A program made the position numbers and the translations under genes. Shown piece by piece: positions 18,281 through 24,338 of a DNA stretch of 38,993 bases. Below the pieces are notes generated by a model that saw only the letters and a list, made by a program, of their open reading frames with translations, did not search any database and had not been told where the DNA came from. Each line of letters starts with the position of its first letter. Positions within the stretch are counted from its first letter, which is position 1. The stretch comes from Chitinophagales bacterium. Lineage in GTDB: Bacteria; Bacteroidota; Bacteroidia; Chitinophagales; S012-47. Location of the stretch: assembly GCA_015487695.1 (NCBI GenBank), contig WFPF01000112.1, forward strand, positions 1 to 38,993. The letters run 5' to 3'.

Positions 18281-18745
18281 TCAGGAAATCAGATTTTGAC
18301 GCAACAGGAATTCAAGCTGCTCATTGGCCCGCTTGAGCTTTATCAGCAATTCCTTGTTTTCCTTCTTCAGGTTGTAAACCTCAAAGGCATTCTTGATGGT
18401 CATTCGCAATTCGGTCTCATCCCATGGTTTGGTGATATAGCGATAGACCTGTCCCTTGTTAATGGCATCGATGACTGCTTCAATATCGGTGTATCCGGTA
18501 AGCAGAATGCGAATCATATCAGGATACTTTTCCAGAATGGATTCCAGGAATTCAACGCCCGTCATCACCGGCATGCGCTGGTCGGTGATCAGTATATGTA
18601 TATCTTCTTCGTCCAGCACCTTGACACCTTCGGCAGCCGATATGGCCGTGAAAATTTTAAAATCTCTCCGAAAGGTGGCTTTGAAAGCCGTTAAGTTGTT
18701 TTGCTCGTCATCTACGTAGAGAATATGAATGTCTTTCAGATTCAT
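18281..18745 (-). CDS. Receiver-domain response regulator with C-terminal coiled coil
   Basis: A 154-residue protein: a complete CheY-like receiver (about 1-122) with acidic pair D12/D13, phospho-acceptor D55 in ITDQRMP, Thr in LLTGYTD and Lys in TKPWDE, followed by a short charged coiled coil (about 125-150) and no DNA-binding or enzymatic output. The ILLTGYTD...GQVYRYITKPWDE stretch is typical of RpfG-like receivers. It closely resembles the receiver of the hybrid protein at 22819 and may be its duplicate. It is divergent from the ThiF-kinase operon (106-base gap), so it may be part of the same system, for instance as a phosphate sink or a free response regulator. Confidence 0.9.
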   Translation of the reverse strand: MNLKDIHILYVDDEQNNLTAFKATFRRDFKIFTAISAAEGVKVLDEEDIHILITDQRMPVMTGVEFLESILEKYPDMIRILLTGYTDIEAVIDAINKGQVYRYITKPWDETELRMTIKNAFEVYNLKKENKELLIKLKRANEQLEFLLRQNLIS

Positions 18746-18851: not shown

Positions 18852-19955
18852 ATGAATAGCAGCAAATTGAAGGCAAGGATTGAGAAAAACATACCCGATC
18901 ATAAAAGTTACCGTCCCCGAATATTTAAGACGAACTTGGAAGAAGACATGCAGGCGCTCGAAGAGCTTCTGGATTCTGAAGATGACCTCATTGTCTATGA
19001 CAGGTACCGCCAACAGGTGAACGAACTCATGAAACTGAGCCATCCGACCCGCCAATTATCAGCGGAGGAGCAGGAAGACCTGTTCAGGGAGTATCTCGAT
19101 GGGAGGGATGCTGCGCATCACGGAAACTGGGTCTATTATCCCTGGAATAGGTCATTGGTACACCTCCTTGTGGAAAAAGATTTTATAGCCGTCCGCACGA
19201 ATCGCAACAAGTACAAGATCACCGATGAAGAACGGGAGATACTGAGCCGGAAAAAAATCGGCATCATCGGTTTGTCGGTGGGGCAGTCGGCAGCGTTGAC
19301 CATAGCCATGGAAAGGCTCTGCGGAGAGCTCCGGATTGCCGATTTTGATACCCTTGATTTATCAAATCTGAACAGGTTGCGTTCCAATGTATACTCTCTT
19401 GGACAAGAGAAGACCATAATGGCAGCCCGGGAGATAGCAGAACTGGACCCCTACCTGCGTGTAACCTGCTTTTTTGACGGGGTAACACCTGAAAACATTG
19501 ACTCTTTTCTCGAAGAAGGCGGGAAACTCGATCTGGTAGCCGATGAATGCGACAGCATGCCGATCAAGTTTCAAATACGATTTGCAGCACGTGAAAAAGG
19601 CATACCGGTGGTAATGGACACCAGTGACAGGGGTTTGCTCGACATCGAACGGTTTGATAAAGAACCAAAACGTGCTATCTTTCATGGAAGAATAGATGAA
19701 GAGAATATAGATTATTCAAATATGATGATGATTTTGGATGCAATCCTGGATTTATCCCAGATCTCGGATCGGGGTAAATATTCCCTGAGTGAGGTGGGTA
19801 AAACAATCACTTCGTGGCCTCAGCTGGCATCTTCCGTGATGCTCGGAGGAGCCACGGTGGCTACAGCGGCCCGAAAAATTTTGCTCGGAGAGGACGTGCC
19901 ATCCGGAAGGCATTATTTCGATGTAGGTAATGAACTAACCAAAACCAAAAACTAA
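18852..19955 (+). CDS. ThiF/E1-like adenylating protein (Rv1355c-like ThiF part)
   Basis: A 367-residue protein. Residues 1-130 are an acidic helical region of unknown role. About 135-300 carry the E1/ThiF/MoeB nucleotide-binding fold: KIGIIGLSVGQSAA (Rossmann loop), ADFDTLDLSNLNRLR (E1 ATP-binding segment), GQEKTIMAAREIAELDP and ADECDSMPIKFQIR (C in the crossover-loop region). The segment VVMDTSDRGLLDIERF recalls Rv1355c-type proteins, where a ThiF domain is fused to a nitroreductase; here that part is missing. No zinc CxxC pairs are seen. E1-like proteins adenylate a carboxyl group. The substrate is unknown; the adjacent acyltransferase suggests a small-molecule substrate. First gene of a five-gene operon. 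Confidence 0.85.
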   Translation: MNSSKLKARIEKNIPDHKSYRPRIFKTNLEEDMQALEELLDSEDDLIVYDRYRQQVNELMKLSHPTRQLSAEEQEDLFREYLDGRDAAHHGNWVYYPWNRSLVHLLVEKDFIAVRTNRNKYKITDEEREILSRKKIGIIGLSVGQSAALTIAMERLCGELRIADFDTLDLSNLNRLRSNVYSLGQEKTIMAAREIAELDPYLRVTCFFDGVTPENIDSFLEEGGKLDLVADECDSMPIKFQIRFAAREKGIPVVMDTSDRGLLDIERFDKEPKRAIFHGRIDEENIDYSNMMMILDAILDLSQISDRGKYSLSEVGKTITSWPQLASSVMLGGATVATAARKILLGEDVPSGRHYFDVGNELTKTKN

Positions 19956-20663
19956 GTGAATTACAACAGTGTCAATAAGGTGAGGATCACAGCATTCCGG
20001 GCAACCGAGAATCCTGAGGCATGTGACAAATTCATAGAAGGCCACAGCAAGGTCCTCTCCAGCCATGGAGTGGATAAAGTAACCTCTTCAAACAACGATT
20101 GGAAGTACAATCCGGAGGCATATGTAATCCTGATCGAGACGGGAGACGGGGAACGGGTTCTGGGTGGCTCGCGTGTGCATTGCCTGGGTGGCACCCAGCC
20201 CTTGCCACTGGTGCCGGCCACCCGCGACCTGGATAAAAGCGTAATCGATTATGTAGATCAACTGGGAGAAAAAGGAGTAGGTGAAATTTGCGGCTTGTGG
20301 AACTCTCTCGAGGTAGCCGGAATGGGCGTAGGGAGTATCTTCTCCATTCGTTGCGCAGTAGCCGTTTTATCTCAACTGAATATTCAATATTCACTGGCGC
20401 TTTGCTCGCCTTATACAGCTCGCCTGGCAGGCAACTACGGATTCAATATCGAAGAAAGCCTCGGAAACAACGGTACCTTCTACTATCCAAAACTCGACCT
20501 GCTGGCAACAATCGTAAGACTTGATGATGTGCATACCATTCCGGGGGGGAATGAGCACGAACTGAAAAGAATTTTTGACCTGAGGGAAAATCCGGTTCAA
20601 ACAAAAGAAGAAAAGGGACGTAAGGGGGCTGAATTTATTATTGAGTATAATTTGAAAATATGA
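19956..20663 (+). CDS. GNAT/acyl-homoserine-lactone-synthase-like N-acyltransferase
   Basis: A 235-residue soluble protein. GVGEICGLWNSLEVAGMGVG (about 109-128), the preceding strand ERVLGGSRVHCL and the later ARLAGNYGFNIEES give a GNAT-like pattern closest by eye to LuxI/FeeM-type N-acyltransferases. In these, a Glu-containing beta strand precedes the acyl-CoA/ACP-binding helix and a final Gly-Phe marks the fold end. The C-terminal 30 residues are charged. The start is a GTG at 19956, directly after the ThiF stop with no gap, and the stop overlaps the kinase ATG (ATGA), so all three are coupled. It could make an N-acyl product using an amine supplied or activated by the ThiF partner. Substrate and product are not deducible. 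Confidence 0.7.
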   Translation: MNYNSVNKVRITAFRATENPEACDKFIEGHSKVLSSHGVDKVTSSNNDWKYNPEAYVILIETGDGERVLGGSRVHCLGGTQPLPLVPATRDLDKSVIDYVDQLGEKGVGEICGLWNSLEVAGMGVGSIFSIRCAVAVLSQLNIQYSLALCSPYTARLAGNYGFNIEESLGNNGTFYYPKLDLLATIVRLDDVHTIPGGNEHELKRIFDLRENPVQTKEEKGRKGAEFIIEYNLKI

Positions 20664-22810
20664 GTTTCAAAAAGGCGACAGTTGCAGCACTATTCCTGTT
20701 CACCACCATATCACTTTTCGCATCACAAAAAATATTGGAGTTCTCGGGTAGGCAGAGCGGCTATGTGGGCAACTACCTGAACTACCATTTCTCTGTCAGG
20801 GACAAGAGCTACTCCAATATTCATGAATTTGGCAATTCGCTGAAGCCGGTTAACTTCAGTGTACCCAATTTCGGGCTGAAGGACTCTACGCTCTGGGTAT
20901 CATTTACCATTCGCAGCGAGGACACCAGCACACCCTTTATCGTGGTTGAGAATCCGTGGCTCGACCGGGCCACTCTTTTTGAGGTGCTCTCTGACGGATC
21001 GCTGCACCAGATGTATGACATCAGCGACCGGAGCTTTAGCGAAAGAGTAATCAAAACCACGGAAATAGTCTTTCCGCTCACTTTGCACAAAGGCGAAGAG
21101 CGGCAGTTTGTAATGCGTTTTGATTGTCTCGAGCAATTTATGCTGCCCGTAAAACTCGAGTCGCAGAATAGCTTCCTGATCTATAAATCGAACATCAATC
21201 TTTTTGCGGGATTTTATTACGGGCTGATCCTCGTAATGATCCTCTACAATATATTTATATACGTCTCGGTTCGCGACAACAACTACCTGCTCTATGTATT
21301 GAGCATTGCGGCCATCGGACTGACGCAGTTTACCCTCGATGGATATGGCTTTAAGTTTCTATGGCCTTCCAGCGAGTGGATGGCAGATAAATCCATCAAC
21401 CTCATGGGAATCTTTTCGGGAATTACTACGGTGATTTTCTCCCAGAGTTTCCTGAAAATAAAACGCTATTACAAGCCCATGTACTGGGTATTCAATGGCT
21501 ATATCGGGCTTTACCTGATCAGTTTTATTGTGCTGCTCATGAATATGACCAGCCTCAGCTACAAGATCATCAGTTTTAATGCGGGTTCATCCTTCCTGCT
21601 CATCATCGTGGCGGCATTGATACTCCGAAAGGGATATCGCCCGGCCAAGTTTTACCTCATCGCCCTGACCTTGTTCCTGATCGGGGTAATGATCTTTGTA
21701 TTCAAAGATCTGAATTACCTTCCCTACAACCTTTGGACGGTGAATTCGGTGAAGATCGGCTCGGCATTCGAAGTCGTACTCCTCTCCTTTGCCCTTGCCG
21801 ACCGTATCAATACCCTGAAACGGGAAAGAGAAGAATCGCGACTGAAGGCCATCGAAGTTCTGAAGGAAAATGAACGCATCATCCGCGAACAGAATATCCT
21901 GCTCGAACAAAAAGTAAAGGAAAGAACCAAGGATCTGGAAAAAGCGAATGATGAACTGGCCAAAACTCTGAAAAACCTGACCGATGCACAAACCCAACTG
22001 GTAGAGTCGGAGAAAATGGCCTCGCTCGGTCAGCTTACGGCTGGGGTAGCCCACGAAATCAACAATCCGATCAACTTCGTCACCAGCAACATCAATCCGC
22101 TGAAAATGGATATCCAGGATTTGATTGAAGTGCTGGGCAAATACGATGCCCTGATTGAAGAGGAAGGAGAGCTTAGAGAGAAGCTGATCGAAATTCAGAA
22201 GTACAAGAAGGACATTGACTTTGAATATTCGCTTGACGAGATTGACTCCCTGCTTACCGGAATAGAGGAGGGGGCCAAGCGGACAGCCAATATTGTCAAA
22301 GGACTGAAAAACTTCAGCCGGATGGATGAAGAGGGATACAAGCATCACAACCTGGAAGAAGGCCTGGATTCGACCCTTATTATTCTGAACAATGCATTGA
22401 AAAACAAAATCAAACTGGTGAAGGATTATGGCGGAATTCCCAAGGTGGAATGCCGGGGCGACAAGATCAACCAGATCTTCATGAATATCATCTCAAATGC
22501 CATTCAGGCCATTGAAATGAAAGAGGAAATGACGGATCATGAAACGATTACGATTACAACTCGTAGAGAAGGTCCGGATATGGTTTCTATATCAATAAAA
22601 GATACCGGGATGGGCATGAGTGAAGAGGTGAAAGCCAAGATTTTTGAACCCTTCTTTACGACAAAGCCGGTAGGCCAGGGTACCGGTCTGGGAATGGCCA
22701 TTGTATTTGGCATACTCGAAGACCATGGGGGGGAAATAATAGTAAACTCTGAACTTGGTGTGGGTACCGAGTTTGTAATAAAACTACCAGTAGATCACTA
22801 CACGTCTTAA
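20660..22810 (+). CDS. 7TMR-DISM sensor histidine kinase
   Basis: A 716-residue sensor kinase. A signal sequence (1-21) precedes a periplasmic beta-rich domain of the 7TMR-DISMED2 type (about 25-170), the carbohydrate-binding-like sensor fold of this family. Seven hydrophobic segments span about 182-380, then a long coiled coil (about 385-450) and a HisKA box SLGQLTAGVAHEINNPINF with H465. The ATPase domain (about 560-716) has an N-box in MNIISNAIQAIE, then KDTGMGM, FEPFFTTK and GQGTGLGMAI. It should sense a small extracellular ligand and autophosphorylate. Its ATG overlaps the acyltransferase stop by 4 bases, the strongest sign that signal production and sensing are linked. Confidence 0.92.
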   Translation: MSFKKATVAALFLFTTISLFASQKILEFSGRQSGYVGNYLNYHFSVRDKSYSNIHEFGNSLKPVNFSVPNFGLKDSTLWVSFTIRSEDTSTPFIVVENPWLDRATLFEVLSDGSLHQMYDISDRSFSERVIKTTEIVFPLTLHKGEERQFVMRFDCLEQFMLPVKLESQNSFLIYKSNINLFAGFYYGLILVMILYNIFIYVSVRDNNYLLYVLSIAAIGLTQFTLDGYGFKFLWPSSEWMADKSINLMGIFSGITTVIFSQSFLKIKRYYKPMYWVFNGYIGLYLISFIVLLMNMTSLSYKIISFNAGSSFLLIIVAALILRKGYRPAKFYLIALTLFLIGVMIFVFKDLNYLPYNLWTVNSVKIGSAFEVVLLSFALADRINTLKREREESRLKAIEVLKENERIIREQNILLEQKVKERTKDLEKANDELAKTLKNLTDAQTQLVESEKMASLGQLTAGVAHEINNPINFVTSNINPLKMDIQDLIEVLGKYDALIEEEGELREKLIEIQKYKKDIDFEYSLDEIDSLLTGIEEGAKRTANIVKGLKNFSRMDEEGYKHHNLEEGLDSTLIILNNALKNKIKLVKDYGGIPKVECRGDKINQIFMNIISNAIQAIEMKEEMTDHETITITTRREGPDMVSISIKDTGMGMSEEVKAKIFEPFFTTKPVGQGTGLGMAIVFGILEDHGGEIIVNSELGVGTEFVIKLPVDHYTS

Positions 22811-22818
22811 TCAACTAA

Positions 22819-23904
22819 ATGAGCAAAAACAGAATTGACGTACTCTTTCTGGATGATGAAGAGAACAATTTGATTTCTTTCAAAAGTGCATTCAGAAGAG
22901 ATTACAGAGTACACGTAGCACTAACTGCCCGGGAGGCAAGGGAAATTCTTGACCAAACCGAAATTCCCATTGTTATCTCCGATCAACGCATGCCCGAAAC
23001 TACCGGGGTGGAATTTTTTCAAAGCATTATCGATACATACCCCGATTGTATTCGCATCCTGCTGACGGGATATACCGACATCAAAGCAGTGATTGATGCT
23101 ATCAACAAGGGGCACGTCTATCGTTATCTGACAAAACCCTGGGACGAACAGGAAATCCGCATTGCCATCGAGAACGGGTTTAGCTACTACAATGCCAAAA
23201 AGGAACTGCGCGAGAAGAACCGAAAACTCCAGAAGACCAATGACGAGCTGAACCGTTTTGTGTATAGTGCTTCGCACGACCTCAGGGCTCCGCTTACCTC
23301 CATCATGGGGGTGCTCAACCTGGCCCGCCTGGAGGTAGGTGACTTTGGCGATGATCCGTACCTTCCGCTGATTGACCGGAGTGTGAAGCGCCTGGATGAA
23401 TTTATCCAGAACATCATAGACTATTACCAAAACATCCGCTCTGATGCCATTCGAAATGAGGTCGACTTCAATACCGTGGTCAAAGGCATCATCGAAGACC
23501 TGAGCATGCTCTCGGGCAACAACATAAACTTTAATGTGAACATCACTCAGTCGGGTTCTTTCCTGGGTGACTCATTTCGTATTAAAACAGTATTGGTAAA
23601 TATTATCTCCAATGCCATCAAATATCAACGGCCGGATGCCGATTCGCAGGAAGTAAGCATCAATATCGATGTGCTGCCTGACAAGGCAATGATCCGCATT
23701 TCGGACAATGGCATCGGTATTGAAGCAGAATATGTAGATAAAATCTTCGACATGTTCTTCCGTGCCACACAAAAGAATTCAGGATCGGGAATAGGACTCT
23801 TTATTGTCAAAGAAGCACTGGATAAAATGGGAGGTCAGATTGACGTGAAGTCAGCCGTAGGTGAAGGCACTACATTCAGCATTGAAATCCCTAACCAGGT
23901 ATGA
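22819..23904 (+). CDS. Receiver-histidine kinase hybrid (REC-HisKA-HATPase)
   Basis: A 361-residue cytosolic protein with an N-terminal receiver (about 1-122; D12, D13, phospho-acceptor D55 in ISDQRMP, LLTGYTD, TKPWDE), a short coiled coil, a HisKA box FVYSASHDLRAPLTS with H153, and a HATPase domain (about 245-361; NIISNAIKYQ, ISDNGIGIE, GSGIGLFIVKEALDKMGG). No membrane segment or sensor domain is present, so its input is probably phosphate or allostery through the receiver, from the 7TM kinase encoded 8 bases upstream. Its stop overlaps the next start (ATGA). A relay from kinase to hybrid to single receiver is a reasonable model. Confidence 0.93.
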   Translation: MSKNRIDVLFLDDEENNLISFKSAFRRDYRVHVALTAREAREILDQTEIPIVISDQRMPETTGVEFFQSIIDTYPDCIRILLTGYTDIKAVIDAINKGHVYRYLTKPWDEQEIRIAIENGFSYYNAKKELREKNRKLQKTNDELNRFVYSASHDLRAPLTSIMGVLNLARLEVGDFGDDPYLPLIDRSVKRLDEFIQNIIDYYQNIRSDAIRNEVDFNTVVKGIIEDLSMLSGNNINFNVNITQSGSFLGDSFRIKTVLVNIISNAIKYQRPDADSQEVSINIDVLPDKAMIRISDNGIGIEAEYVDKIFDMFFRATQKNSGSGIGLFIVKEALDKMGGQIDVKSAVGEGTTFSIEIPNQV

Positions 23905-24338
23905 ATGAGGAGATGAAAATAATGCTGGTTGATGACAACGAAATTGACCTTTACCTGCATGAGAAGATGCTCAGCGTAGCTGGTATTTCAAATGATGTGA
24001 CTCCCTTTCTTTCTGTGAAAGAAGCCATTCGTTTTCTGAGATCCAATGCTCGGAAAAAAGCTTTGCTTCCCGATCTTATCCTGCTCGACATTCAGATGCC
24101 CGGCCTGAATGGTTTTGACTTTCTCGACCGTTTTGAAACACTCCCTCAGTCGGTTATCGATCATGTGACCATCTTTATGGTATCCTCTACGCTCGACCGG
24201 GGCGACCTTCACCGGGCGAGAAGAAGCCCTTTCGTGACCAGAATTCTGCGAAAACCGCTCAACCTGAAAGATATCAGCACCGCAGTAGCCTATCTGCTTG
24301 AGGAAAGGGACGAAGAAGCAATGGGGACTTCGGACTAA
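23901..24338 (+). CDS. Single-domain response regulator (CheY-like)
   Basis: A 145-residue receiver with acidic pair D11/D12, phospho-acceptor D63 in LLDIQMPGLNG, a Ser/Thr switch in MVSSTLD and Lys in RKPLN. There is no output domain. The VDDNEIDLYLHEKML start is typical of the Rcp1-like receivers that pair with hybrid kinases. It is translationally coupled to the hybrid kinase gene (ATGA) and is the last gene of the operon. The phosphorylated form must act by protein contact; target unknown. The last 4 bases overlap the converging secreted-protein gene. Confidence 0.93.
   Translation: MNEEMKIMLVDDNEIDLYLHEKMLSVAGISNDVTPFLSVKEAIRFLRSNARKKALLPDLILLDIQMPGLNGFDFLDRFETLPQSVIDHVTIFMVSSTLDRGDLHRARRSPFVTRILRKPLNLKDISTAVAYLLEERDEEAMGTSD

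Follow-up and report, generated by a model that had tools for sequence, protein, structure and literature searches.

The acyl-oxazolones are made from N-acyl amino acids by a set of related bacterial pathways. In Mycobacterium and Rhodococcus, the ThiF-type protein TrzS (Rv1355c) works together with the acyltransferase TrzA to make N-acyl tryptazolones; TrzS first cyclises an N-acyl amino acid at its carboxyl group in an ATP-dependent reaction, and the fused flavin oxidase then carries out the desaturation, with TyzACB and OxzAB (the latter in Pseudoalteromonas) as related pathways (PMC12856293, PMC10404671). Without its oxidase activity TrzS still forms the saturated cyclic product, and for the discoverers of the tyrazolones and tryptazolones, what these compounds do physiologically is a major question still to be answered (PMC12856293). 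The subject of the present work is a five-gene operon at positions 18852–24338 of contig WFPF01000112.1 from a Chitinophagales bacterium (assembly GCA_015487695.1; the whole 38,993-nucleotide stretch is referred to as the window). As in OxzAB, TyzACB and TrzAS, a TrzS-homologous ThiF cyclase adjoins a FeeM-like N-acyltransferase. Unlike in these pathways, the flavin oxidase is missing and the enzymes are coupled to a dedicated receptor kinase and a phosphorelay. The published oxazolone clusters, as described, have no such kinase; trzAS of Mycobacterium tuberculosis adjoins cyclic di-GMP genes, as has also been noted in the literature.

The gene set, its conservation, the fold and family of the enzymes, an interchangeable enzyme slot, and the association of the sensor with that slot make this a well-supported candidate signalling operon, and we consider it probable that it produces a single small acyl signal and also carries the means to sense it. 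From the same evidence we infer the product, the ligand, the direction of the relay and a role in quorum sensing. With the same chemistry lying beside a conserved receptor kinase, the role of the oxazolones becomes directly testable. If the reading is right, it would give the acyl-oxazolones their first receptor and a physiological role, add a small-molecule signalling family found in about one fifth of the sampled genomes of the class, and offer a natural experiment on how synthase and receptor stay matched while the chemistry changes. To our knowledge, classical LuxI/LuxR quorum sensing is absent from most Bacteroidota, and few ligands are known for 7TMR-DISM kinases. No such Bacteroidota system was found in the open-licence papers searched.

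Several better-known systems share parts of this design. In the Phc system of Ralstonia the genes stand in the order phcB-phcS-phcR-phcQ, and PhcR and PhcQ lack DNA-binding domains (PMC8578825). By gene order and architecture, the window operon resembles it in combining a signal enzyme, a membrane kinase, a soluble receiver-kinase protein and a single receiver. PhcB is a methyltransferase where the window has ThiF, and 23–24 relatives of the window operon have a methyltransferase as well. The two differ in that the window signal is predicted to be built on an N-acyl amino acid and the Phc signal on a 3-hydroxy fatty acid, in the 7TMR-DISM type of the window sensor, and in that no PhcA-like regulator is known for the window system. 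LuxM-LuxN and CqsA-CqsS of Vibrio likewise pair the synthase of an acyl signal with a histidine kinase in the membrane, but they use other synthase and sensor families and hybrid kinases that feed LuxU-LuxO (PMC8895600). The RetS/LadS kinases resemble the window kinase in having a DISMED2 domain and a seven-transmembrane (7TM) bundle. Their cues, as far as we know, are not products of a neighbouring synthase.

The Cyclase and the Acyltransferase

The first gene of the operon (18852–19955, +) encodes a ThiF/E1-like protein of 367 amino acids (aa). The E1-like fold assigned to it in the initial annotation is borne out by matches to PF00899 and to NF005901, the "Rv1355c family protein" model (E=2e-132). 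Residues 13–366 align to positions 4–343 of the 722 in this model, which is its ThiF half only, so the protein corresponds to the N-terminal half of a Rv1355c/TrzS-type enzyme. Because the oxidase half is missing, the score of 443 bits falls under the curated cut-off of 476. The protein is 46% identical to a "Rv1355c family protein" on a Rhodococcus plasmid, and its ADFD, LSNLNR and ECDS motifs and Gly-rich loop, common to the actinobacterial Rv1355c family proteins, are intact; the adenylation motifs are conserved across the cluster family. On a Rhodococcus plasmid (L142, 2423–6516), the genes adjoining a TrzS-like gene encode a GGDEF protein and, divergently, a hypothetical protein.

Other assignments of the ThiF protein fared less well. 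Models of ubiquitin-like E1-E2 anti-phage defence in PADLOC match the Rossmann core only (2e-9), a scan of the neighbouring genes showed no E2, JAB or ubiquitin-like partner, and the matches to molybdopterin or thiamine ThiF/MoeB proteins are far weaker than to the Rv1355c family.

The second gene (19956–20663, +) encodes a predicted N-acyl amino acid synthase of 235 aa. Its earlier assignment as a GNAT-like acyltransferase found no echo in sequence searches, which gave no match in Pfam or NCBIfam at E≤1, and stood up by predicted fold. The AlphaFold model (predicted local distance difference test, pLDDT, 88.9) matches FeeM chains in the first six ranks of the PDB, FeeM 2g0b being the best, and nine N-acyl-homoserine lactone synthase entries in ranks 7–15, among them BjaI, MesI, RpaI, TofI, LasI and EsaI. 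The comparison with LuxI and FeeM that had been proposed for this protein thus confirms, at the level of the model, a LuxI/FeeM variant of the GNAT fold; a different fold had been named beforehand as a result that would refute the proposal. FeeM, an N-acyl amino acid synthase, is the closest solved structure (about 15% identity); we know of no receptor paired with it. Sequence homology to an actinobacterial neighbour protein is marginal (hhalign E=0.004). FeeM and BjaI are also the closest structural neighbours reported for TyzA (PMC10404671).

Taken together, the ThiF protein and the acyltransferase match the enzymes of an oxazolone pathway of the OxzAB, TyzACB and TrzAS kind, a chemistry that the initial annotation had not named. 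The flavin-dependent oxidase (desaturase) is absent from the operon and was not found elsewhere in the host genome, a 2.77-Mb draft that is 98.7% complete; it was recovered in three genomes with a ThiF-oxidase fusion and was not found in six other ThiF-only genomes. Without it, the window operon is an incomplete member of the pathway. Since oxidase-less TrzS still yields the saturated cyclic product, the product predicted from these homologies is an acyl-oxazolone closed from an N-acyl amino acid, in its saturated form or as a derivative of that form.

Conservation of the Cluster

A single-sequence search found the GNAT gene in 12 of the 345 phylum genomes, and a profile search found it in 76 of the 395 genomes sampled from the class; a scan of the collection gave 510 relatives, from which 80 loci were kept. 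Looking for the GNAT on plasmids gave none. In the first survey, a 7TMR-DISM kinase lies beside the GNAT gene in 86/86 loci with room downstream, or 87/87 with a further locus confirmed by tblastn (L089), and in the second survey, which shares a handful of loci with the first, it does so in 59/60. Separation of the ThiF-GNAT pair from sensor kinases in related genomes had been named beforehand as the observation that would refute the proposal; what was found instead is a clustering of GNAT with the kinase that is far from chance. The exception in the second survey (L214) is an outlier at 58–60 bits. The receiver-kinase gene is present in 82/86 first-survey relatives. In the phylum sample, the 12 best matches to the sensor domain fall in exactly the 12 genomes with GNAT, and a thirteenth match, in a genome without GNAT, scores the same as the twelfth.

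Sensor halves of this type also occur away from the cluster. Another 14 loci with distant sensor relatives have no adjoining GNAT or ThiF gene and look like ordinary 7TMR-DISM receptors. Related sensor halves on proteins of about 500–550 aa, likewise with no adjoining GNAT or ThiF gene, were seen in four genomes (G016, G001, G011 and G006; loci L145–L148). ThiF-GNAT pairs without a kinase were seen in the distant genome of L214 (6304–8159) and on a Streptomyces plasmid (L143, 4935–6733), in the latter case preceded by a gene for a MerR-type regulator. Locus L034 seems to have, between its ThiF and kinase genes, an additional GNAT-like frame of shorter length.

Exchange of the Tailoring Enzyme and Its Association with the Sensor Half

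The gene beside GNAT, here called X, encodes a tailoring enzyme that is interchangeable between loci. It is ThiF alone in 44 loci, a class-I S-adenosylmethionine-dependent methyltransferase of about 254 aa in 23 (24 with L089), and a ThiF-oxidase fusion in 21, so that the full fusion of the oxazolone pathways is seen in 21 of 91 first-survey relatives. The methyltransferases may act at the carboxyl group too, as the TrzS cyclisation does (PMC12856293, PMC10404671); the stieleriacines provide examples of N-acyl tyrosines methylated on oxygen and on carbon (PMC12479983). In a single case (L018, 8703–10090), X lies between GNAT and the kinase and belongs to the isoprenylcysteine carboxyl methyltransferase family. 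Where X is absent the contig is cut, save at one locus (L179, 3187–8154), which is uncut and has GNAT directly before the kinase with no tailoring enzyme; that system may use the plain N-acyl amino acid.

The third gene of the operon (20660–22810, +) encodes the 7TMR-DISM sensor histidine kinase (716 aa), which has a DISMED2 extracellular domain, a 7TM bundle at residues 172–393 and a HisKA/HATPase part. PF07696, PF07695 (9.5e-48) and PF02518 score above their cut-offs, and HisKA reaches 23.2 bits against a cut-off of 26.9. The model of the sensor half (20660–21874; pLDDT 92.8) has seven transmembrane helices, with the periplasmic domain of RetS as its best PDB match.

This sensor half, extracellular domain and 7TM bundle together, follows the tailoring enzyme, as can be seen when changes of X type are counted on the tree of each domain. 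Among 82 complete loci, X type has to change 6–8 times on the tree of the 7TM bundle and 9 times on that of the extracellular domain, compared with 23 times for the kinase domain, 18 for GNAT and 19–20 for the receiver-kinase. Windows of 110 columns along the kinase give 7–10 changes across the sensor half and 18–24 past it, which places the step at the end of the 7TM domain; windows along GNAT show no gradient. The sensors linked to methyltransferases form a single clade (22/22), whereas the kinase halves of the same proteins are dispersed. Counted on supported branches, changes into or out of the methyltransferase type that arose independently came with a sensor switch in 8/8 cases for the receiver-kinase tree (sign test p=0.008), in 7/7 for that of GNAT (p=0.016) and in 5/5 for that of the kinase. 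Partial Mantel tests likewise find an effect of X in the 7TM bundle and none in GNAT, kinase or receiver-kinase; the 7TM effect persists given the extracellular domain, and the effect of the extracellular domain is gone given 7TM. The p values of these tests ignore relatedness, and the tree tests therefore weigh more. With 48 loci added (130 combined), X-type changes number 14 on 7TM and 18 on the extracellular domain versus 29–32, and with close relatives left out the nearest 7TM predicts X in 112/130 loci and the nearest kinase in 72/130. In the new loci, the nearest 7TM tells the methyltransferase from the ThiF type correctly in 44/48.

The 19 positions that separate the groups most strongly comprise 18 in the 7TM bundle, one in the extracellular domain and none in the kinase. 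A concentration of such positions in the outer half of the bundle was also considered, and was significant at one threshold (14/112 vs 4/110, p=0.025) and not at others; it was therefore set aside. The association itself points to a receptor that is matched to the tailored product, and it lends support to the earlier proposal of an acylated product sensed by the kinase, in which the ligand, its export and the output are all putative.

Proposed Mechanism and Alternative Explanations

We propose that the GNAT protein, as its fold and its partner suggest, couples an acyl group to an amino acid, and that ThiF, by homology to TrzS, would activate the carboxylate with ATP and close the acyl-oxazolone. 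In the absence of the flavin oxidase, the product would be a saturated oxazolone or something derived from it. This product would reach the 7TMR-DISM kinase. Its modified head group would, in view of the co-variation, be recognised by the sensor half of that protein, most likely in the 7TM bundle. The kinase may then hand phosphate to the receiver-kinase protein and the single receivers, a flow suggested by the PhcS-PhcR-PhcQ-like architecture. Such a system would most likely operate in cell-to-cell (quorum) or self-sensing, and the autocrine circuit suggested initially is plausible. We regard the cluster as a candidate quorum-sensing family in which oxazolone-type chemistry is joined to a Phc-like phosphorelay. 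The balance also tips, if modestly, towards a widespread Bacteroidota quorum-sensing family in which the synthase and phosphorelay are kept and the head-group enzyme and the matching 7TM half are swapped as a unit, giving rise to chemical "dialects".

The main rival is neutral co-inheritance, in which recombination exchanges the enzyme gene together with the neighbouring 5' half of the kinase gene; the match would then be uninformative on the ligand, and the kinase may sense something else. The methyltransferase gene always adjoins the kinase gene, and where the order is GNAT-X-kinase the correlation of enzyme and sensor is strong (0.57 for ThiF, 0.90 for the methyltransferase). In the X-GNAT-kinase order, which is that of the window and in which the cyclase does not adjoin the kinase, it is weak (partial r 0.15–0.27, n=18), and joint transfer of neighbours therefore contributes to the match. 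The extracellular domain, nearest to the enzyme gene, tracks the enzyme too. As a full account we nevertheless think co-inheritance unlikely: the GNAT gene, the enzyme's other neighbour, does not track the enzyme and has no gradient in its windows, the association ends sharply at the boundary of sensor and kinase, and it is the 7TM effect, not that of the extracellular domain, that survives when each is conditioned on the other. The weak correlation in the window's own order is one of several results that weigh against a signal made and sensed by the operon. With three classes of X, the nearest neighbour in the 48 new distant loci is correct in 28/48 for 7TM, 26/48 for the extracellular domain and 27/48 for GNAT; ThiF and ThiF-oxidase types are poorly predicted there, and the contrast in the new loci alone is modest (7 changes on 7TM vs 9–12). 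The operon encodes no DNA-binding output, and in Mycobacterium and Rhodococcus most of the acyl-oxazolone goes to the cells (PMC10404671, PMC12856293).

This partitioning would fit a different role, in which the enzymes synthesise or alter a membrane lipid or another cell component and the kinase monitors the state of the envelope and not a diffusible signal. N-acyl amino acid lipids made elsewhere in the Bacteroidota offer a parallel, and the weak fold matches of the sensor (TM-score at most 0.36) include human Wntless, a membrane protein that carries an acyl chain, which is only a hint from a model. A structural lipid, however, needs neither a receptor matched to its head group nor interchangeable head-group enzymes, and the whole set occurs in only about 19% of the sampled genomes of the class. 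We give this explanation a small chance, and favour a kinase that senses the product over enzymes that modify a cell component, the alternative raised at the outset, because the sensor half associates with the tailoring enzyme. Smaller still is the chance that the kinase, acting on an unrelated cue, merely regulates the biosynthesis of a product that is secreted as an antibiotic or stress metabolite. Several Proteobacteria make oxazolones in response to antibiotics, and N-acyl tyrosines can have antimicrobial activity (PMC12856293). With an unrelated cue, however, there would be no need for the sensor to change along with the tailoring enzyme, and the conserved set has no immunity or export gene.

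Receivers and Gene Layout

Downstream of the kinase are a soluble REC-HisKA-HATPase protein of 361 aa with a PhcR-like architecture (22819–23904, +; PF00072, PF00512, PF02518) and a single-domain receiver of 145 aa with a PhcQ-like architecture (23901–24338, +; PF00072 E=2e-12). The five genes lie where the initial annotation had placed them, and the junctions, described there as all of 0 or 4 bases, hold with one exception: the kinase and receiver-kinase genes are separated by an 8-base gap (22811–22818). The GNAT-kinase and receiver-kinase/receiver junctions are ATGA overlaps (of 4 bases in the former), and between ThiF and GNAT there are 0 bases, the GTG start following immediately on the ThiF TAA. 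These two genes share one reading frame, with only TAA and then GTG between them (19953–19956); in a near-identical locus from a Chitinophagales metagenome-assembled genome (L026), they are likewise two separate frames, each as long as its counterpart in the window. Left out of the earlier gene set was a divergent single-domain receiver of 154 aa (18281–18745, −; PF00072 E=8e-20), which lies 106 bp upstream of the operon and points away from it; its best-hit relative adjoins the cluster in 80/86 relatives.

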